Origin: Planctomycetes bacterium syqfu | GTDB taxonomy: Bacteria > Planctomycetota > Phycisphaerae > Phycisphaerales > Phycisphaeraceae | Assembly (NCBI GenBank): GCA_020974905.1 | Contig: CP087563.1 | Location: 4,960,001-5,024,000 of the forward strand | Direction: 5' to 3' | Length of the DNA stretch: 64,000 nt | In this document: positions 26,418 through 38,924 of the stretch, piece after piece | Position numbering within the stretch: the first letter of the stretch is position 1 | How the letters are laid out: every line of letters starts with the position of its first letter | Notes under the pieces: generated by a model | The model's input: the letters and a program-made list of their open reading frames with translations, nothing else | The model's database searches: none | What the model was told of the DNA's origin: nothing | Program-made: the position numbers and the translations under genes

Positions 26418-26565
26418 GCGCTAAACCACCCCGGAAGCAAGCGGTTTACTATTCGGACGAAATCCGAAATCCGAAATCCGAAATCCGAAATCCGCCACCG
26501 AAGGTACTGCGAAGCACAATCCGAAACTTCCGGGGGCCGGGGAAAACTTCCGGGGGGGGGTTACA
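26418..26565. repeat. Composite intergenic repeat: CTAAACC hairpin, 7-bp tandem repeat, CTTCCGGGGG motifs
   Basis: CGCTAAACC and GCAAGCGGTTTA would form a hairpin but are split by ACCCCGGAA. Then GAAATCC is repeated five times (26459-26493), then two CTTCCGGGGG copies (26524-26558). It fills the spacer between the GH57 gene and rdgB. Confidence 0.75.
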
Positions 26566-28264
26566 TCTTCCACCAGTCGAGTTCGATTTCGTTGAAGATG
26601 ATGTCGTGGATGTTGGCATCTTCGACTTCGAATTTTTCGATCTCGTTGAGTTTGCCCAGGTAGCTGGTGTCCTCTGCGAGTTTTTCACTCAGTGCAAGTA
26701 GCGTCTCAAAGCGGGAGACGTGTTGCATGAATCGTTTGATACCGTAGTCGACAGCCTGGCCGCGCGTGATGATGAACTGCCAGTCGGACGCCTGGAGCAG
26801 GAACAGTTCGCGTCCAGCCTTCTTGAGCAGGTCTTCGATCTGCGGGTTGGTCCGCCAGGGCAGGTCCATGGTGGCTTTGCCGAAGTTGGCTTCGCAGCGG
26901 TATTCGATATCCCACATCCAGTTGACCTTGTCGTTGGTCCACACACGGTGATCGCCTTCCTCGCCCCACGAACCTTCGGGCATGGAGACCACCTTGTCCG
27001 GCGGGTTCATCTCAAGCATCTCATCACTGGCACGCAGGTCCACATCGGGATCAGCGTTGAGCGTCATGATCACATCACGCAGGAACTTGGGACCTTCAAA
27101 CCACCAGTGACCAAACAACTCTGCGTCGAATGTAGCGACGACATGAGCGTGACGGCCAGTGCGATGGTGGTACTCGTTGACACGATCGTGGACAAGTTTT
27201 GCAAAGTGCTGAGCATGCTGATGAATGTGATGCTCGGTGTCATTGGGATAGTAAAGGTGTTTTTCACCGAGGTCGACCTTGTTGCCGGTGACCTTCCAGT
27301 AACGCAGGCCGCGCTTTTCACCCCATTGTTTGTGGAATTCCAGGTAGACACCGTCTGCCGGGTATCCGATCGCGCCACTCCAGACCTGTTCACAGACGCG
27401 CGGGTCGCGGCCGAAGACTGCAACGCGACCGAGTCCCGTGCCATCGGAGTTGACCAGGTGCGGTTCATGGACGGAGTGCCAGCCGCGGTTGACGTATTTC
27501 TTGCCTTCTTCCCAATCGACTTTCCACCACTTGCCATCGTTGAAAAGCTGTTCGGAGTGTGAGCCTTCGATCAGATGATTTTCGACAAAGAAGTGGTTGA
27601 TGGTTTCATCAGCAATGAGATGCTCGATGCCGATGCGGTTGCCTTTGCCCGCCCAACCGATGGGAGAATTCCACGGACCGCCGGGACGGTAAGCACATTC
27701 GGGTAACCACATGCCCGTGGGCTTGTAACCGAGAATGCGATGACTCGACGCCAAACCTGCACGCAACTGTGCCCGGATGGAGGAGTCTTCAAAGAGCAGT
27801 GGCAGGTACGCATGTGTTGCGGTGGAGGTCAGCAATTCGATGTGACCGTCACGAGCATGCTTGCCGTACGCCGCAGGGATGTCGCGCTTGATGGCTTTGA
27901 ACTGGTTGAGCAGTCGCTCGTAGGTTTCAGCCCATTGCTGAGCGAGATACGCCATGTGCCCGTTGTCGAGGTCTTCGAATTCTTTGAGATCTTTCTCTGC
28001 GCGTTCGATGCGATCAAGGAGGTATTTCTCGAAGCCTTCCTTGAAGTGATCATGTGCCAACTGTTCAAGGAGCACCGGCGTTAAACCAATGGTGAACTTG
28101 GGCGAGATTTCATGCAGGACGCAATGCCCGATGATGTCCAGGATCGGCAGGTAGGTTTCGGCGGCGGCTTCATAGAGCCAGTCTTCGCCGTGCGGCCAGA
28201 CGCCGTGCCGGAGGACATAAGGAAGGTGACCGTGAAGGACGAAAGTGAAGCTGCCTTTTGCCAT
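26561..28264 (-). CDS. Glycoside hydrolase family 57 (DUF1957-type, alpha-glucan branching-like)
   Basis: 567 residues. GH57 enzymes act on alpha-1,4-glucans (amylase, branching enzyme or 4-alpha-glucanotransferase). The N terminus GSFTFVLHGHLPYVLRHG is the first conserved region. The nucleophile region is GMWLPECAYRPG with Glu; the acid/base region is VATFDAELFGHWWFEG with Asp. C-terminal helical part NPQIEDLLKKAGRELFLLQASDWQF is typical of the branching-enzyme subgroup (TK1436-like). It therefore likely takes part in glycogen synthesis. ATG 28264 is chosen because MAKGSFTF matches the family start; TACACT lies 10 nt upstream with no Shine-Dalgarno. Confidence 0.9.
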   Translation of the reverse strand: MAKGSFTFVLHGHLPYVLRHGVWPHGEDWLYEAAAETYLPILDIIGHCVLHEISPKFTIGLTPVLLEQLAHDHFKEGFEKYLLDRIERAEKDLKEFEDLDNGHMAYLAQQWAETYERLLNQFKAIKRDIPAAYGKHARDGHIELLTSTATHAYLPLLFEDSSIRAQLRAGLASSHRILGYKPTGMWLPECAYRPGGPWNSPIGWAGKGNRIGIEHLIADETINHFFVENHLIEGSHSEQLFNDGKWWKVDWEEGKKYVNRGWHSVHEPHLVNSDGTGLGRVAVFGRDPRVCEQVWSGAIGYPADGVYLEFHKQWGEKRGLRYWKVTGNKVDLGEKHLYYPNDTEHHIHQHAQHFAKLVHDRVNEYHHRTGRHAHVVATFDAELFGHWWFEGPKFLRDVIMTLNADPDVDLRASDEMLEMNPPDKVVSMPEGSWGEEGDHRVWTNDKVNWMWDIEYRCEANFGKATMDLPWRTNPQIEDLLKKAGRELFLLQASDWQFIITRGQAVDYGIKRFMQHVSRFETLLALSEKLAEDTSYLGKLNEIEKFEVEDANIHDIIFNEIELDWWKM

Positions 28265-28404
28265 AATGTAAATCAGTGTACCAGATTGCGCCATGCATGA
28301 CAGTGGACCGAACCCGATTGAAACTTTTTCTGATATTTGTAAGTTGCATTTGCGTTACAACCTATATCACGAACCTCATGAACATCCGACTTAGGAGTAT
28401 GAAA

Positions 28405-30375: not shown

Positions 30376-30425
30376 CGCTTTTGCCTTGCATCTGTGTTTA
30401 TCTGTGTGCATCTGTGGCTAATATG
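30376..30425. repeat. CACAGAT repeat at the 3' end of lpxK
   Basis: GCATCTGTGTTTATCTGTGTGCATCTGTGGC; on the minus strand this supplies the last six codons and the TAA stop of lpxK. Confidence 0.75.
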
Positions 30426-31462
30426 CCTTGAACCATTTGGGCCAACGCATTCTGTTCAGACGCATCGCTAAACCCCATGGCCAACTTCACGCGATAGACC
30501 GGGTCGTTAGCATCGAGTTTGGGCCATTTCACGTAGTCTTTTTCCGTGGTGATCAACACTGCATTGTCTGCCTTGGCACGTTCGACCAGTGCGGTGATTT
30601 CTTCGCTGGTCCATGCGTGGTGATCAGGTTGGATGATGATGTCGTTGATGTTCGTTGCATGCGACTGCAAGGTGTTGCTGAAGGCATCAGGATTGCCAAT
30701 GGCGATGGCGGCGAGACACGGCTTGCCGTTTAGCAGTTCCAGACTGTGTTCGTTGTCCTGCGTGTCGAGCAGTGAGACCCATTGATGCGAAGCATGCGCG
30801 ATGGGCGCGTTGCCGGTGATGCGGGTGATGGTTTGATCCAGCTCGACGATTGCTTGCGGGGGGACTTGATCGCTGCGTGTGACGATGATGGCATCAGCAC
30901 GTTTGAGCGCAGACTTGGGTTCACGCATCAGACCACGTGGCAGGAGATGACCATAACCAAACGGGTTGGTTGCATCGATCAACACGATGTCCAGATCGCG
31001 CTTGGCTTGGCGATGTTGAAAGCCATCATCCAACACGAAGCAGGTGGTCTGCGGAAATTTTTTCAGGGCTTGTTGTGCACCTTCCACGCGTGAGGGGTTG
31101 GCAATGACGGGGACTTGTTCGCCGAATTGTTTGACGTAGACCGCTGCTTCATCCGAGCCGTGGGTATCGGTGGACTTGTACCCGCGGAGCAGGATGGTGG
31201 GGCGGTGTCCCATGGCAAGTAGGCTTTGGACGAGAAAAGCGACCATGGGGGTTTTGCCGGTGCCCCCGGTGGTGAGATTTCCCACAGACAAGGTGGGGCG
31301 TCCCAGTGCATGGGATGGCTTGAGACCAGCATCAAAGAGTTTCTGTCGGACGCCGTTGGCAAGGGCGTAGCCTGGGGTGAGGATCGACATCATGCCGCGT
31401 GTGAGGGATGCGGTGAGTGAGGTGTCTTTGCCACTGATGATGTCGAGGATGCGTTGGGTCAT
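30398..31462 (-). CDS. lpxK: Tetraacyldisaccharide 4'-kinase
   Basis: 354 residues. Phosphorylates the 4' position of the lipid A disaccharide at the inner membrane, so a lipid-A-like glycolipid and an outer membrane are implied. Walker A is GNLTTGGTGKTPM (the family's GTGKT loop), LDDGFQHR is the diagnostic catalytic motif, and DLDIVLIDATNPFGYGHLLPRGLMREP follows as usual. N-terminal amphipathic helix LTRGMMSILTPGYALANGVRQ is the membrane-binding part. The C terminus (GILATDAHR) and stop codon lie in a CACAGAT repeat, so the native end may have been replaced. ATG 31462. It lies downstream of maf on the same strand, with a repeat between. Confidence 0.94.
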   Translation of the reverse strand: MTQRILDIISGKDTSLTASLTRGMMSILTPGYALANGVRQKLFDAGLKPSHALGRPTLSVGNLTTGGTGKTPMVAFLVQSLLAMGHRPTILLRGYKSTDTHGSDEAAVYVKQFGEQVPVIANPSRVEGAQQALKKFPQTTCFVLDDGFQHRQAKRDLDIVLIDATNPFGYGHLLPRGLMREPKSALKRADAIIVTRSDQVPPQAIVELDQTITRITGNAPIAHASHQWVSLLDTQDNEHSLELLNGKPCLAAIAIGNPDAFSNTLQSHATNINDIIIQPDHHAWTSEEITALVERAKADNAVLITTEKDYVKWPKLDANDPVYRVKLAMGFSDASEQNALAQMVQGILATDAHR

Positions 31463-31647: not shown

Positions 31648-32229
31648 CTATTGACCAGTCAGAAAATCCTTGAGCAATCTCATCGGCAAGCCCACGACAG
31701 TTGTTTCATCACCCTCCACGGTCACCGGCCAACCCGCTTTCTGGCGGTCAAACAGGTTGTATCCGCCTGCTTTACCCTGCCACTGTTGGGTGTCCAAATA
31801 GGCATTTATTTCACTTTCTGGGAGATTTCCCAGGGTCACCTGCGCCCGATCTGCCAGTTGGACAGGGTCATTTTGACCGGGAATGATCATTGTGACACCG
31901 GTGACGACCCAGTGGGCACAATTGAGCATATCGGTGATCTGCTGCCTGGCTTCGTCGCGTGTAACAGGGGTTCCCGCCAGCGATCCATCGGGCATGACGA
32001 TGAGGGTATCGGCAGCCAAAATGTGGTTTTGAGGGTGAATGTTTTTGACGCTAAGTGCTTTTTGAAGCGATAATTGCATGGCAATCTGCTCGGGTGTCGC
32101 TCCCGTGTCCTCAGGCTGTGGCGGGTCGTCGTAGGGGGGCTTGATGGCCTCGAATGTGACACCTGCCTCGGTGAGTAACTGGGCTCGACGGGGTGATTGG
32201 CTGGCAAGTGTCCATGAAATTTTATGCAT
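31648..32229 (-). CDS. maf: Maf-like nucleotide pyrophosphatase
   Basis: 193 residues. House-cleaning enzyme that hydrolyses non-standard or modified (d)NTPs such as dTTP/UTP or methylated forms. Start motif WTLASQSPRRAQLLTEAG; the second conserved block AADTLIVMPDGSLAGTPVTRDEAR; then LNCAHWVVTGVTMI. The Maf PxDxDE block is degenerate here (KPPYDDPPQPEDTG), within the range seen for divergent members. ATG 32229 is chosen because MHKISWTLASQSP is the normal beginning; the 50 upstream in-frame codons look non-coding. Located just upstream of lpxK. Confidence 0.88.
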   Translation of the reverse strand: MHKISWTLASQSPRRAQLLTEAGVTFEAIKPPYDDPPQPEDTGATPEQIAMQLSLQKALSVKNIHPQNHILAADTLIVMPDGSLAGTPVTRDEARQQITDMLNCAHWVVTGVTMIIPGQNDPVQLADRAQVTLGNLPESEINAYLDTQQWQGKAGGYNLFDRQKAGWPVTVEGDETTVVGLPMRLLKDFLTGQ

Positions 32230-32504
32230 GACTTTTTTCGCAAAAGGACTTATGTTCAATTCAAAGACCAGTAAAATGACAGATATGCACAAGTTATTCA
32301 AGGTTTCCAAGAGTCTTGCCCGATAATGAACATTGAACCAGAAGCGTAAGCATGTCGCTGAGGGGCAAACACAGCACATGCATGGACATAAGATGTAGGG
32401 TGGTCAACCCCCGATTTTCCAAAGTGTCACCGTGGCACGAGAGAAAACCTTCGGGGGGGGCAGGCAAGGACGTCTGCTCGGAGAATTGATGCAAGGATAG
32501 CGCG

Positions 32505-33800
32505 TTGCGGACCATCGCCATCATTAACCAGAAAGGCGGCTGCGGGAAGACGACCGTGTCGATCAACCTCGCGGCTGTGCTTGCTGCTCAAGGCCAACGG
32601 ACCCTGCTTGTGGATATGGATCCGCAGGGCCATTGTGCGTTGGGGTTGGCAGTCCCCGAAGCCCAGATCAATCAGTCCATGGCGGACATGATGATGGCAG
32701 GCCTCGACGGTTCACTGGCGATGGCTGACGTCGTCTGGCAAATCTCTCGCAACTTCGACCTGGCGCCAGCCACCACGGCTTTGGCGGGTGTCGAAGTCCA
32801 ACTGGCAAACGCTTCGGATCGTGATCGTCGCCTGGTTCAGGTGCTCAGCACGATTCAATCCAATTACGATATCTGCATTATTGACTGTCCCCCGTCGATC
32901 GGACTTTTGACCTTCAACGCGCTGCGTGCGTGTGATGAAGTGATCGTGCCTGTCGAGACGGGGTATTTTGCGTTACAGGGCTCCTTCAAACAGGAAGCGA
33001 CCGTCGAAATGATGGTCCGCCGCACCGGTCATCAGGTCCGCCATAAAGTTTTGGCCACCATGTATGACGTGCGGACGAAACTGGCTCGCGAAATCTTAAG
33101 TGAACTCAAGAAACACTTCGGCGAATCGCTTTTGCCGGTGGTGGTGAACTTCAACGCCAAACTCAAGGAAGCTGCCAGCTTCGGTCAGCCGATCACGGAA
33201 TATGATCCGACGAGCCGTGGCATGCAGGACTTTGAGCAGTTGTCCGCGTGGCTGCTTGCCAACCCACCGATTCCAGCAACGGTACCACAGAGTGAACAAG
33301 AGGAAGAAGCACCCGCCGCCAATCCCGCATTGAGTCGTGCCGCTGAACTCGTTGAACGTGCCCGCGCTTTGTCGGCTCGCACAGCCACTTTGGCCAACAA
33401 GATTGCCTCCGATCCGGCTGTGGCTCGCACGGGTTTGATGCAGGAAGCCGAGCGTCAGCGTGAAGACCGCGCACTGGATCCGGTGATCGTCTCGGAAAAC
33501 GTTAAACGCATGGAACGCCTCTTTGGTGTCCGCAAGACCCAGCAAGGTGTTCTCTTTGTCCAGCCACAACAGACCGCCAGCACCATCAGCGTTGCCGGTG
33601 ACTTTAACAACTGGTCACCCACTGCCACGCCACTGAAGCGTGACACCGACCTGGGTGTCTGGCAGACCTGTGTCCCGATCCCGCCTGGTCGCTACCGCTA
33701 CCGCGTGGTCATCGACGGACAATGGAAGCACGATCAATACAACTCGTCGATCGAAACCAATCCTTTCGGCGAACTGAATAGCATTCTTGAAGTGGGATAA
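32505..33800 (+). CDS. ParA/MinD-type ATPase fused to a C-terminal CBM48/AMPK-beta glycogen-binding domain
   Basis: 431 residues starting at TTG 32505 (AGGA 7 nt upstream; no ATG fits the family start). Residues 1-255: SIMIBI ATPase with deviant Walker A INQKGGCGKTTVSINLAAVL, LLVDMDPQG, and Walker B region IDCPPSIGLLTFNAL. Such ATPases cycle on DNA or membrane to position cargo. Residues 265-345: Glu/Ala/Arg-rich linker with helical heptads (AAELVERARALSARTATLANK). Residues 345-431: SVAGDFNNWSPTATPLKRD, GVWQTCVPIPPGRYRYRVVI, DGQWKHDQYN and FGELNSILEV match the AMPK-beta/CBM48 consensus closely, including the Trp and Lys residues that bind glycogen. A glycan-sensing positioning ATPase is the inference. 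A terminator follows. Confidence 0.88.
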   Translation: MRTIAIINQKGGCGKTTVSINLAAVLAAQGQRTLLVDMDPQGHCALGLAVPEAQINQSMADMMMAGLDGSLAMADVVWQISRNFDLAPATTALAGVEVQLANASDRDRRLVQVLSTIQSNYDICIIDCPPSIGLLTFNALRACDEVIVPVETGYFALQGSFKQEATVEMMVRRTGHQVRHKVLATMYDVRTKLAREILSELKKHFGESLLPVVVNFNAKLKEAASFGQPITEYDPTSRGMQDFEQLSAWLLANPPIPATVPQSEQEEEAPAANPALSRAAELVERARALSARTATLANKIASDPAVARTGLMQEAERQREDRALDPVIVSENVKRMERLFGVRKTQQGVLFVQPQQTASTISVAGDFNNWSPTATPLKRDTDLGVWQTCVPIPPGRYRYRVVIDGQWKHDQYNSSIETNPFGELNSILEVG

Positions 33801-33847: not shown

Positions 33848-33966
33848 CTTTGAATCACAGAGTCACAGTGACACAGAGTTGATCACAGAGAAGAAGCAAG
33901 CCTTTGAAAACAACTGTTTATCTCGGCAATTAAAACTCTGTGCCTCTGTGTCTCTGTGGTCAAGAC
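33848..33966. repeat. CACAGAG-type palindromic element
   Basis: ATCACAGAGTCACAGTGACA...CAGAGTTGATCACAGAG and CTCTGTGCCTCTGTGTCTCTGTGG form inverted arms about 55 nt apart. Confidence 0.75.
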
Positions 33967-34181: not shown

Positions 34182-36716
34182 GTGTTGGATCGACAACGCA
34201 CCGATAAAGAGCTCGACGCATTGGCGGATTTGTACCTCACAGGTCCCGATGACACCGAAGATACGTCCTCCAACAGCGAGGCAATCGGTATCGGTGCGCA
34301 ACGCGATTCGACTTCCCGTCGCCGTAAAGGTCCGGGTAAAGCTCAGGCTGCAGATAGTGCGGACACCTATGACCGCTACCCCGGCACGCGATCCACGGGT
34401 TTGATGACCCAGCCGCAGCCTGCCAAACTCAATCCCAAAATCACCGCCAACCCAACCAACAAAAACAAGACCGACCAGTCTGCGGGTTCCGCCGCATCGC
34501 CGTCCGACGAAGAACTGCTTGCCGAGCAGCTTGCTGAACTCTCCGAGCAGACCAAGCGTGATGAGCCGACGCTGCGACTGGTGAATCTTGAACTTGAATC
34601 CGCCATGCCCGATACCGATGATTCTCAAACGAATCAACAAACTTTCGATCAATCCGATGACCATGCCGACGCGCAGCATGCTGCGATGGATTTACAGGCC
34701 ATGAAGTCTGCCTCGGCATCCGACGAAACGAAGGAGTCGATCCTTCAGATTGACGAACCCATTGCCATTGTCGATAAACGTGTCGAAGTGGTTTTCCTGG
34801 GTAATCTCCCCGGCTTTGCTTCGCCATGGATGACGCAATACGCACAGCATGTCGCCCTGGAGTGTGGCGTGGTGGGTGTCTTGCACATTGATGATGAACA
34901 GATCGATCTTGATTTTGTCACCACCCCCGCCAACCGCGTCAAGCTTGATAACCTGCATCGCCAGGTGATGGATTTTGATCAGGCTGACGACCTCATTGCC
35001 GTATTGGATTTGCTTAACCAAGGTGCTGACCCCGTCGTCGGTGCCTGGCTGATTCATCTGGCCACACCTCTGACCGCCACCACCAAGACCATTGCCCGGT
35101 CGCTTCCGGTATGGACGCTATTGTCAGGGGTTGATGAGGCAGCCGGTGCCCGGGCGATGGATTGGTTGTCACATTGCATGAAAGTCGCTGACCCCGCGAA
35201 TATGAGTCATGTCCAGTTCATGGGCATGGGTTGTGACATTGATCGCGCAGTCGCGCTGATTCGCCAACTTGATGAACGTGCTCTGGATCAGTGGGACACC
35301 TCCATCGAACTCGTCGGCGTTCAGCGTCAGATGGTTCCCGTGCACCTGCAAACGCTCGGCAGTTTCCCGACCATGCTCGAACAGTGGCCGGTGATTGCAC
35401 GTCTGGTTGCAGGTGATTCAGCCAGCTCGGATCACCGCAACTCGCTGGTCACACGCATTGATCCTGCAAGCCAGCAATCGCAAACCAAAGTCACGCCACC
35501 GCAGCCGGAGTTGGATGACGATGATCAAACCATCGATGCATCCAAATCTGGCAGCCATGATTTTGAAGCCACCGTCACCGCTGAAGAAGCACGCAGCCTG
35601 CTCATGGCAGCAGCCAAAATGGACGGCATCAGCATTCAAGGTGTCGAACTCGAAGAGACCGAATCCGAGAATGTCGAAGATGAGATCGACGAAGTGTTAA
35701 CCGCGTCATCGACTGAAGCAACATCATCGAACATCTCCCCGTTGGAAGCATCACACAGTGAAGATCTTTCGGACACCGGCGCGTTTGATGCCTTGGCTGA
35801 CGAGGACGCGGTCGATGAACTCGATGAGATGGAAGCCGAGGCCGTGCAGGTGGATGATGATGTCCAACTGACCGGCCACGACATTGCCACCCAGGCCGTC
35901 CCCGAACCGGAAGTGGTTTCGGAAACGGTTCGCAGTTTTGTCGAACGTCTCAAGCAACAGGAATTGGAAAAACGTCGTCAGGCCAAAGCCGATGGCAAAG
36001 CGAATGTCGATGCCGACGTTGCCGCCTCCGAGCCGATGCTTGATGAACTGGAAGATGTCGATTCGGATGCGGGTGATGATTTCGTTGAGCCTGCGCATGA
36101 TCCGGAACCTGCAATGCGTGTCGCCCAGATCGCTCGCAAGTCGCAGCGTGGTGGTGATGTGCATGCTCACATTCTGCATCACCAGACAACGCAACAGTCC
36201 GAATCGCAGCCTGGCAAACATAAGGCTCAGCCGACCACGCAGCGTGTGGTTGCCTCGCAAAGCCAACCCAAGCCGCGTCCGACTGCTGAGCCGGATCATG
36301 TGCATTCGCATGAGACTTCGCAGCCGCACTTGGCCAGTTTCCTGCAGGAAGCAGGTATGATCAGCCTTACCGCACGTTGCCCAAATCACCCGCAGGTGGA
36401 ACTCACCCTCGATGAGTCCGGCGGATTGCATTTGCTCGCCCGTCATCAGCAAGCCACCGGCAAGTCGGTCAATGATGCCATCTACGAACTGCTCGATGCT
36501 CGCGGCTGGGTCGATCAGCATATCTCCCTGTTGAGCATGACCCAGAAGCAGCTCCGCTTCGACATGCAGATTCGCCCGGTGGTGCATCTGTTCACCGATG
36601 ATGCCAAAGCTGCTGCGAAATTGGTCGCCAACAGCGCCCGTTTCGTGAAGCTGCACCTGCTCTCGGAAGTGACGGTCGGCCATGACAAAGCCTTCTACTG
36701 CACCGAACTCAACTGA
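34182..36716 (+). CDS. Large acidic protein with a putative degenerate SIMIBI-like domain
   Basis: 844 residues. Start is GTG 34182 or TTG 34185; AGGG fits the latter at 7 nt. Residues 1-200 are polar and probably disordered. Residues 200-405 form a folded alpha/beta domain: VEVVFLGNLPGFASPWMTQY begins it in a way that resembles a MinD/FlhG-type core lacking the Gly-Lys-Thr loop, then VVGVLHIDDEQIDLDFV and GAWLIHLATPLTATTKTIA. Residues 430-720 are extremely acidic and Ser/Thr/Gln-rich. Residues 725-844 form a second compact domain (LTARCPNHPQVELTLDESGG ... VHLFTDDAKAAAKLV). No membrane segment. I know no named family. Neighbours are the ParA-CBM48 gene and bactofilins, so a scaffold role is plausible. 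Confidence 0.75.
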   Translation: MLDRQRTDKELDALADLYLTGPDDTEDTSSNSEAIGIGAQRDSTSRRRKGPGKAQAADSADTYDRYPGTRSTGLMTQPQPAKLNPKITANPTNKNKTDQSAGSAASPSDEELLAEQLAELSEQTKRDEPTLRLVNLELESAMPDTDDSQTNQQTFDQSDDHADAQHAAMDLQAMKSASASDETKESILQIDEPIAIVDKRVEVVFLGNLPGFASPWMTQYAQHVALECGVVGVLHIDDEQIDLDFVTTPANRVKLDNLHRQVMDFDQADDLIAVLDLLNQGADPVVGAWLIHLATPLTATTKTIARSLPVWTLLSGVDEAAGARAMDWLSHCMKVADPANMSHVQFMGMGCDIDRAVALIRQLDERALDQWDTSIELVGVQRQMVPVHLQTLGSFPTMLEQWPVIARLVAGDSASSDHRNSLVTRIDPASQQSQTKVTPPQPELDDDDQTIDASKSGSHDFEATVTAEEARSLLMAAAKMDGISIQGVELEETESENVEDEIDEVLTASSTEATSSNISPLEASHSEDLSDTGAFDALADEDAVDELDEMEAEAVQVDDDVQLTGHDIATQAVPEPEVVSETVRSFVERLKQQELEKRRQAKADGKANVDADVAASEPMLDELEDVDSDAGDDFVEPAHDPEPAMRVAQIARKSQRGGDVHAHILHHQTTQQSESQPGKHKAQPTTQRVVASQSQPKPRPTAEPDHVHSHETSQPHLASFLQEAGMISLTARCPNHPQVELTLDESGGLHLLARHQQATGKSVNDAIYELLDARGWVDQHISLLSMTQKQLRFDMQIRPVVHLFTDDAKAAAKLVANSARFVKLHLLSEVTVGHDKAFYCTELN

Positions 36717-37385: not shown

Positions 37386-37656
37386 TGGGCGCAAATGACT
37401 CACGAATGCCAGTGATTCATCACGTCCGACACGGTTACACGTCTGATGTCATGGCCACGAATTCCCATGATTTGTGGACGTCTGGTGGACAACTCGGTGT
37501 TGTGGTGCGGTTTTACGTCCGAGAACTCCACGAAAGCTGTTCATTTTCGGGCTGTTGGAGATTTGGTTGCCAAAGGGTCGATTCAATGGATCGAGGCATG
37601 ACAATGTTTGTGGTGCCCGAAGTATTGAAATTTTCACACTAGACGGAGTGGAAGCT

Positions 37657-38202
37657 GTGAGCGACAACAAGAATACCAAGACCGTTCTGGGCCCGGATGT
37701 CAAAATCAAGGGTCAGATTTCTCTGGACAACGATGCAGTGATCATGGGCGAAGTGTCCGGACAGATCCGCGTCGGTGGCATGCTCGAATTGACCGAAACC
37801 TCCCGCGTCGAAGGTCTCGTCGTGGCAGGCGGTCTGCGTCTGGGCGGTCAGGCCAAGGCGGACATCGTGGCGGAACACGGCATGGAACTGCTGGCTTCGG
37901 CCCAGTTGACCGGCCAACTCTACACCTCGCGTCTTTCCGTCGTCGATGGTGCCATGTTCGAAGGTCACGTCGTTGTGGGTCCCAATGCCATGCAGGCTGC
38001 CAGCGATGTGATGCAGGGCGTCGAAGACATTCAGGTCGACACCCAGCACGAACAGTTCAGCCCGGCTAATGGTTCCAAGCCCGACATCAATACCGTGCCC
38101 CGTTCACTGGACGAAATCCTGGCACGTCGTCGCAGCAAGACCAACGGTCAGGCTGTCCCCCAACATGTCGGTGCTGGTGCGGCAGAAGAGACAGACGAGT
38201 AA
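37657..38202 (+). CDS. Bactofilin (polymer-forming cytoskeletal protein)
   Basis: 181 residues from GTG 37657; GGAG lies 8 nt upstream. The longer in-frame ORF (to 37474) is rejected because it has no such site and reads as non-coding. Residues about 10-115 are a right-handed beta-helix bactofilin domain (DUF583): GPDVKIKGQISLDNDAVIMG, GQIRVGGMLELTETSRVEGL, GGLRLGGQAKADIV, LTGQLYTSRLSVVDGAMFEG. Bactofilins polymerise without nucleotide and localise cell-wall enzymes, stalk machinery or, in Myxococcus, ParABS. The C-terminal tail is polar and includes RSLDEILARRRSKTNGQ, a basic patch that may anchor partners. No membrane segment. A zinc-ribbon bactofilin gene follows. Confidence 0.9.
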   Translation: MSDNKNTKTVLGPDVKIKGQISLDNDAVIMGEVSGQIRVGGMLELTETSRVEGLVVAGGLRLGGQAKADIVAEHGMELLASAQLTGQLYTSRLSVVDGAMFEGHVVVGPNAMQAASDVMQGVEDIQVDTQHEQFSPANGSKPDINTVPRSLDEILARRRSKTNGQAVPQHVGAGAAEETDE

Positions 38203-38343: not shown

Positions 38344-38438
38344 TGGACACAAAGCATTCTTCAGGTTTCGTAGCAATGATAGAGTAGATGTGATTCGCCA
38401 TGTGCAACATGGTGTCTCGATCAGATGCAAGGTGCTGT

Positions 38439-38924
38439 ATGCCGTTAAAGCCATCCATGTTGACGACCCACCCGCGCAAGCCTCAGCCGCGCGAGGTCCG
38501 GTCGCTGAGTTGCCCCAATTGCGGTGCGCCCATCGAGGTGAGCCGTCGGGCGATGAGCTATCGCTGTGGCAAGTGTTCGATGCCGATGAAGCTCGAAGAT
38601 GTCACCGTGGATCAACTCAACAACACGCGAACGCTCAACACCATGGGGCACATCCATCTTACCGCTCACAGCAAGGTGGACGGCGAATTGCGATGTGGTG
38701 AACTGACCGTCAGCGGTTCCTACCATGGCAATGCTCACGTGCATGGTAAGGTACACATGCAGTCACACAGCCACTGTTCCGGCGAGATCAATGCCCGGTC
38801 ATTGACCATTGATGACGGGGCGAGCTTTGAAGGCCAACTTCGCATCGGCCCCAAGGCACGCATCGAAGCGCCACAGCTCGAACCGCCGGAGTTCCACGAT
38901 CCCATGATCGACCCGGCAGCCTAA
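38439..38924 (+). CDS. Zinc-ribbon bactofilin-like protein
   Basis: 161 residues from ATG 38439 (AAGG 6 nt upstream). N-terminal zinc ribbon SCPNCGAPIEVSRR ... YRCGKCSMPM (CxxC, 16 residues, CxxC), then a short bactofilin/DUF583 beta-helix: GHIHLTAHSKVDGELRCGEL, VSGSYHGNAHVHGKVHMQSH, CSGEINARSLTIDDGASFEG. The order ribbon-then-bactofilin, with no long tail, differs from the upstream bactofilin. The ribbon may bind nucleic acid or a protein partner and dock it on the filament (inference). Gene order suggests both bactofilins work together, though a repeat separates them. A terminator follows. Confidence 0.85.
   Translation: MPLKPSMLTTHPRKPQPREVRSLSCPNCGAPIEVSRRAMSYRCGKCSMPMKLEDVTVDQLNNTRTLNTMGHIHLTAHSKVDGELRCGELTVSGSYHGNAHVHGKVHMQSHSHCSGEINARSLTIDDGASFEGQLRIGPKARIEAPQLEPPEFHDPMIDPAA

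Follow-up and report, generated by a model that had tools for sequence, protein, structure and literature searches.

A ParA-type ATPase fused to a CBM48 domain in Phycisphaerae and its possible role in positioning glycogen

The gene at 32505-33800 of the 64,000-nucleotide stretch of DNA analysed here (the window) is a genuine fusion of a ParA-type ATPase with a CBM48 domain. With a probability of about 0.42, we read this fusion and the gene downstream of it as a two-gene ParA-type positioning or partition system of the Phycisphaerae, tied to glycogen through its ATPase. The original prediction had placed a ParA/CBM48 open reading frame at these positions; its coordinates were right, and both domains came through Pfam, PDB sequence matches and an AlphaFold2 model. 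ParA-family ATPases position DNA, carboxysomes, chemotaxis arrays and other protein complexes, and we know of no member of the family with a glycogen-binding domain. Nor did our search of the literature, in which subscription journals were thinly covered, find a paper on a ParA-CBM48 fusion.

Architecture of the fusion and its ATPase half

The features of the fusion gene are as follows.

32493..32497, + strand: AAGGA, Shine-Dalgarno-like, 7 nt 5' of the TTG, read from the sequence
32505..33800, + strand: ParA-CBM48 fusion gene, 431 aa, TTG start (Pfam, PDB sequence search, AlphaFold2)
32505..33278, + strand: Soj-type ParA ATPase domain, residues 1-258 (Pfam AAA_31, structural matches)
32532..32555, + strand: deviant Walker A, KGGCGKTT, residues 10-17, with signature lysine K10
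32613..32627, + strand: Walker A', DMDPQ, with catalytic D39, aligned to M. xanthus ParA D60
32883..32897, + strand: Walker B region, DCPPS, residues 127-131
33279..33524, + strand: linker, residues 259-340, helical, low confidence (AlphaFold2)
33525..33797, + strand: CBM48 / AMPK1_CBM domain, residues 341-431 (Pfam; beta-sandwich in the model)
33612..33614, + strand: W370, equivalent of AMPK beta-1 W100; W in 109/109 CBMs
33702..33704, + strand: R400, equivalent of AMPK beta-1 K126; R in 107/109 CBMs
33723..33725, + strand: W407, equivalent of AMPK beta-1 W133; W in 107/109 CBMs
33777..33779, + strand: N425, equivalent of AMPK beta-1 N150; N in 102/109 CBMs

At the position matching the TTG start, orthologues have L, V or M as their first residue. 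Pfam AAA_31 matched residues 1-172 (E 1.2e-47), and the PDB sequence search aligned residues 2-252 with ParA/Soj of M. xanthus (8ray, E 5e-50) and T. thermophilus (1wcv, E 1.9e-44). The C-terminal half exceeded the curated cut-offs of both AMPK1_CBM (PF16561, residues 355-430, E 1.2e-12, 48.2 bits against 26.8) and CBM_48 (PF02922, E 5.6e-9, 36.7 bits against 22.4), and residues 342-430 matched the glycogen-binding domain of AMPK beta-2 (2lu3, E 4e-8); the profile searches that had been proposed as a check thus returned both halves. The AlphaFold2 model, likewise proposed and built with 37 aligned fusions, had a mean pLDDT of 88 and two confident domains, the ATPase and a C-terminal beta-sandwich (341-431, pLDDT about 95), joined by a linker (about 259-340) with pLDDT of 40-84 in blocks and a length that differs among orthologues. 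Compared with solved structures, the modelled ATPase domain reached Z 36.7 with Soj 9a6n and Z 36.0 with M. xanthus ParA 8ray. Across the 7.38 Mb genome, which is a single contig, AMPK1_CBM matches nowhere but in the fusion. Dozens of independent genomes have the same architecture, which excludes chance and misassembly.

All ATPase motifs are intact and conserved in the aligned fusions, as the claim of complete ParA motifs had it. K10, G11, G12, G14, K15, T16 and T17 show no variation across the 37 aligned fusions, D127, C128 and P130 are invariant, and the D39 column has D in 110 of 112 rows and a gap in the other two (columns of the ParA half were counted over 112 rows, those of the CBM over 109 aligned fusion CBMs). 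On a presumed numbering of B. subtilis Soj, R189 corresponds to R190 of the fusion (R in 84/112 rows; about one orthologue in four lacks a basic residue there) and R218 to K219 (K or R in 101/112 rows). Both Soj arginines are DNA-binding residues (PMC3778016, PMC10120649). The idea that the canonical DNA-binding residues had been lost (IPRNVRL to VNFNAKL) was dropped on this mapping, and the ParA half may bind DNA. The pocket of M. xanthus ParA that binds the ParB peptide includes L150, L152, L155, V116 and L192 (PMC12462528). The first three correspond to I132, L134 and F137 and are mostly hydrophobic family-wide; V116 and L192 are poorly kept in the family, the V116 position being mostly Q or A.

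Its fold and motifs make the ATPase a ParA. By the features tested it does not belong to a ParABS system, as it has no ParB alongside and lies below the NCBIfam ParA_partition cut-off (110.7 bits against 180). It was also under the NCBIfam cut-offs for BcsQ (cellulose_yhjQ, 108.2 against 157.85) and minD_bact (43.6 against 212.9). No cognate ParB (ParB_N) was found beside the fusion, where the neighbour has no Pfam match. As a close Soj homologue, the ATPase half could simply be the ParA that serves the chromosome, its C-terminal tail being incidental, but this is very improbable: the genome encodes another ParA (a paralogue at C1:4636674) and a typical ParB (C1:4571976, with LGRGLSALL at its N-terminus, about 420 kb from the fusion), the fusion has no adjoining ParB, and the tail is kept across the class. 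That explanation was dropped on account of the separate ParA and ParB, which make the fusion an extra ParA. The parB gene and the parA paralogue of this genome are about 64 kb apart and not in one operon, and ParA paralogues of the family have Q at the Soj R189 position.

The partner gene and other neighbours

The partner gene and the neighbours named below lie in the window as follows.

34182..36716, + strand: conserved partner gene, 844 aa; commonest conserved neighbour of the fusion
34191..34238, + strand: partner N-terminal helix ...ELDALADLYLTG, residues 4-19; candidate ParA-binding or ParA-activating peptide (AlphaFold2 helix)
34773..35417, + strand: partner degenerate MinD/FlhG-fold domain, residues 198-412; predicted alpha/beta (Foldseek, VIA)
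36360..36707, + strand: partner C-terminal alpha/beta domain, residues 727-842 (predicted; pLDDT over 90 for most)
31648..32379, - strand: Maf-like gene, divergent upstream neighbour; conserved neighbour in the family
30398..31462, - strand: lpxK, upstream neighbour, conserved in the family
26561..28294, - strand: GH57 alpha-glucan branching enzyme (Pfam Glyco_hydro_57 E 8.9e-29, BE_C E 1.7e-16)

The partner family adjoins the fusion in 55 of 108 loci, some of which share a genome and are not all independent; 54 of these partners are on the same strand, with a median gap of 28 bp. The next commonest neighbours are Maf (17 loci) and LpxK (14); larger neighbour clusters in this count overlap the fusion, represent shadow frames and were set aside. 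About half of the fusion loci have no partner alongside. The partner gene of a ParA is usually immediately downstream (PMC8262871), and its place as the commonest conserved neighbour of the fusion fits this rule. In the window the two genes are 381 bp apart. The gap holds an imperfect inverted repeat (33856-33958) with 25-nt arms that are 88% complementary and with CACAGAG units; this unit occurs seven times in the window against 0.5 expected, and the repeat therefore looks like a dispersed intergenic element.

The partner of the window gave no Pfam or NCBIfam match, and its folds are predicted from an AlphaFold2 model, in which long disordered stretches accompany helix 4-19 and the domains at 198-412 and 727-842. 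The best structural matches of the middle domain are the MinD-like ATPases FlhG and FleN, including FlhG 4rz2 (Foldseek E 1.4e-6; VIA Z 12.2, rmsd 4.3 over 169 residues), all obtained with the model, from which the link to this fold comes, as a sequence profile of the domain against the ParA domain was not significant. Unlike FlhG and FleN, to which it has about 10-12% identity, the domain has no recognisable P-loop motif in its sequence. The C-terminal domain had no clear fold match among hits that mostly belonged to the middle domain.

Unlike most of the remaining partner sequence, the N-terminal helix is conserved. A seven-residue LADLFLT-like pattern occurs in the helix in 46 of 61 distinct partners, against 0.21 expected from shuffles and none in control stretches, a figure that measures conservation and is no independent test, the pattern having been derived from the same partners. 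Partners of the Sedimentisphaerales type have [KR]RGIESIAHLFLS as their N-terminal peptide, and the neighbour of a fusion from outside the class Phycisphaerae (L098, genome G058) begins VMKRKKLGRGIEDFIGAFVS. The organism's own ParB begins MAESRARSPRLGRGLSALLSQ and contains LGRGLSALLSQ. In M. xanthus, the ParB motif L11, R13, L15, L18, I19 binds at the ParA dimer interface (PMC12462528). Judged by these sequences, the partner helix may be the counterpart of the ParA-stimulating peptide of ParB.

The original prediction had drawn attention to a GH57 branching-like gene 4 kb away. The gene at 26561-28294 does encode a branching enzyme, but among 40 related loci, viewed up to 20 kb each, it is near the fusion solely in a same-genus genome, and as the proximity is genus-specific we dropped it as a functional neighbour. 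Downstream of the fusion, at 3.7-4.6 kb, are two bactofilin genes (37474-38202 and 38400-38924), the only bactofilin matches of the genome. We rejected them as parts of the system because the other loci examined have no bactofilin gene close to the fusion; the contig of the same-genus genome stops too early to show it either way.

The CBM48 half and its distribution across the class

W100, K126, W133 and N150 of AMPK beta-1, which we take, in the usual AMPK numbering, to be its glycogen-contact positions, have equivalents that are almost invariant in the aligned fusion CBMs, with R in place of K126. The identification of the C-terminal module as a CBM48 is thus upheld by the sugar-contact residues as well as by the profile cut-offs, and the isolated CBM would quite probably bind alpha-glucan. 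Short stand-alone CBM48 open reading frames (115-125 aa; L144, L145, L147, L176), closely related to the CBM of the fusion, occur in the same class.

The organism probably has glycogen metabolism, since its genome encodes an eukaryote-type GT3 glycogen synthase (C1:4619214-4621001, L190 in genome G000; PF05693, 702 bits), the GH57 branching enzyme, a glycogen phosphorylase match and a GT4/GT5-like glycosyltransferase. GT3 synthase is widespread in the organism's family and patchy in the remaining class.

Whole-protein matches to the fusion were found in 38 of 41 relatives, and a search with the CBM by itself gave matches in 110 of 392 genomes of the phylum. Among the best 80 CBM matches in GTDB genome contigs, 72 have a ParA in the same open reading frame, nearly all from Phycisphaerae, which answers the proposal to look for the fusion across Planctomycetes with a class-wide distribution. 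Four of the eight without ParA (L106, L148, L160, L179) begin at a contig edge and are uninformative. The contig titles name Phycisphaerae, Phycisphaeraceae, Phycisphaerales, Sedimentisphaerales and unspecified Planctomycetota; one short contig is labelled Kuenenia and may be mis-binned. None of nine CBM hits that we sampled elsewhere in the phylum was a ParA fusion; one fusion, L098 (G058), does lie outside the class. Spread through plasmids or phages was also dropped, as neither collection of records contains a CBM match. Given the spread mostly within one class and the absence from plasmid and phage records, the architecture looks old and vertically kept in one bacterial class.

The CBM is not kept everywhere. 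The ATPase orthologue ends without it in six genomes (G220, G295, G356, G372, G380, G388), and in five of these the partner was detected beside the CBM-less ATPase; because these genomes keep the ATPase, the function of ATPase and partner does not always need the CBM, and glycogen may be an accessory or a signal. In G348 and G251 the sugar-contact residues have decayed. G348 has lost the equivalents of W407 and N425 and has no match to PF08323, PF00343 or PF05693. Loss or decay of the CBM is commoner in genomes without GT3 synthase (7/8 against 19/44, Fisher p 0.05 with kinship ignored). This association is only weak, and G220 retains intact glycogen genes despite having lost the CBM; loss of glycogen genes was therefore rejected as the explanation of CBM loss. 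GT3 synthase or phosphorylase went undetected in several CBM-bearing genomes.

These patterns bear on two other readings of the domain. CBM48 could be an allosteric sensor of glycogen or malto-oligosaccharide as in AMPK beta, where bound glucan would alter ParA dimerisation or hydrolysis and so couple some other cargo (chromosome, division or envelope machinery) to carbon reserves. The nearest PDB relatives of the CBM by sequence are AMPK beta subunits, in which CBM48 has a regulatory use; the ParA persists without the CBM, mostly with its partner, as it would with an optional sensor; and the excess of CBM loss or decay where GT3 synthase is missing points the same way. We nevertheless consider it somewhat unlikely, as the conserved neighbourhood shows no second cargo or effector and the long, variable linker suggests a tether more than tight allostery. 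Less likely again is a CBM48 fold reused to bind a protein, perhaps the partner or a scaffold, unrelated to glycogen. CBM48 is among the early-set folds, which also mediate protein contacts, CBM loss does not track loss of all glycogen genes, and phosphorylase is undetectable in several CBM-bearing genomes. Against this, exactly the sugar-contact positions are near-invariant in the 109 CBMs, and it is G348, lacking all three glycogen-gene profiles, that has lost two of them.

Proposed mechanism and relation to known systems

The reading that we prefer is a glycogen-linked positioning or partition system. Sequence and tool evidence provides the fusion, its intact motifs, the conserved sugar-site residues, the linkage to the partner, the glycogen genes and the separate ParA and ParB; from this we infer DNA binding, glycogen binding, activation by the peptide and movement of glycogen. 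The ParA half would bind ATP, dimerise and then bind nucleoid DNA, while the C-terminal CBM48 would place the same dimer on the alpha-glucan chains of glycogen. The partner, with its putative ParA-activating peptide, disordered linkers, degenerate MinD-fold domain and C-terminal domain, would trigger ATP hydrolysis and release. Through rounds of binding and release, glycogen granules would be spread along the nucleoid and shared between daughter cells, or kept off the chromosome. The glycogen-linked ATPase of the original prediction agrees with the domains, sugar-site residues, motifs, glycogen genes and class-wide keeping; its use of GH57 as functional context does not stand, and it had left out the partner gene, the separate chromosomal ParA and ParB and the repeated loss of the CBM.

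Several observations speak against positioning. The system can run without the CBM (six genomes, among them G220 with its glycogen genes), roughly half of the loci lack a partner beside the fusion, GT3 synthase or phosphorylase is missing from several CBM-bearing genomes, and the family mostly has Q or A at the position of V116 in the M. xanthus ParB pocket. Moreover, known systems put the cargo-binding part on the partner and not on the ATPase.

Compared with known systems, the fusion shares with ParA/Soj of chromosomal ParABS the fold, the deviant Walker A with its signature lysine, the catalytic aspartate, most DNA-contact residues and a partner immediately downstream with an N-terminal hydrophobic peptide. 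It differs in that the ATPase is fused to CBM48, the partner is predicted to be degenerate MinD-like and has no ParB match, and the organism keeps a separate ParA and ParB for its chromosome. BcsQ of cellulose secretion is also a ParA-like ATPase linked to a polysaccharide, but the fusion is below the BcsQ cut-off, no cellulose genes were seen alongside it, and BcsQ is not known to carry a CBM. The CBM is like the glycogen-binding domain of AMPK beta in sequence and in W100, W133 and N150, with K126 changed to R; in AMPK it sits on a kinase subunit and here on a ParA ATPase. McdA-McdB of carboxysomes likewise combines a ParA-family ATPase with a downstream partner (PMC8262871), and both systems have a probable non-DNA cargo of carbon metabolism. 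In McdAB it is the partner that connects to the cargo, whereas the presumed cargo-binding domain is here on the ATPase itself, which is nearer in sequence to Soj than to McdA (PDB sequence search). By analogy, the fusion system would work most like McdAB, its ATPase and downstream partner serving a metabolic body. A bolder proposal, which we make with some doubt, is that it would be the first ParA-type system for a storage polysaccharide, in which an ATPase with its own CBM and a pseudo-MinD partner with a ParB-like peptide would partition granules class-wide.

The distribution of glycogen matters to a dividing cell: in an E. coli csrA mutant, glycogen piles up at the old pole, chromosome-less cells follow, presumably by spatial exclusion, and replicative lifespan is shortened (PMC4836754). 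The class-wide fusion and its partner make active partitioning of a bacterial carbon store directly testable, and they may be a bacterial counterpart of the way AMPK senses glycogen. As the ATPase-CBM fusion is found class-wide and is often followed by a conserved partner gene, these results suggest that Phycisphaerae place, apportion or sense their glycogen reserve with machinery resembling that of chromosome segregation.
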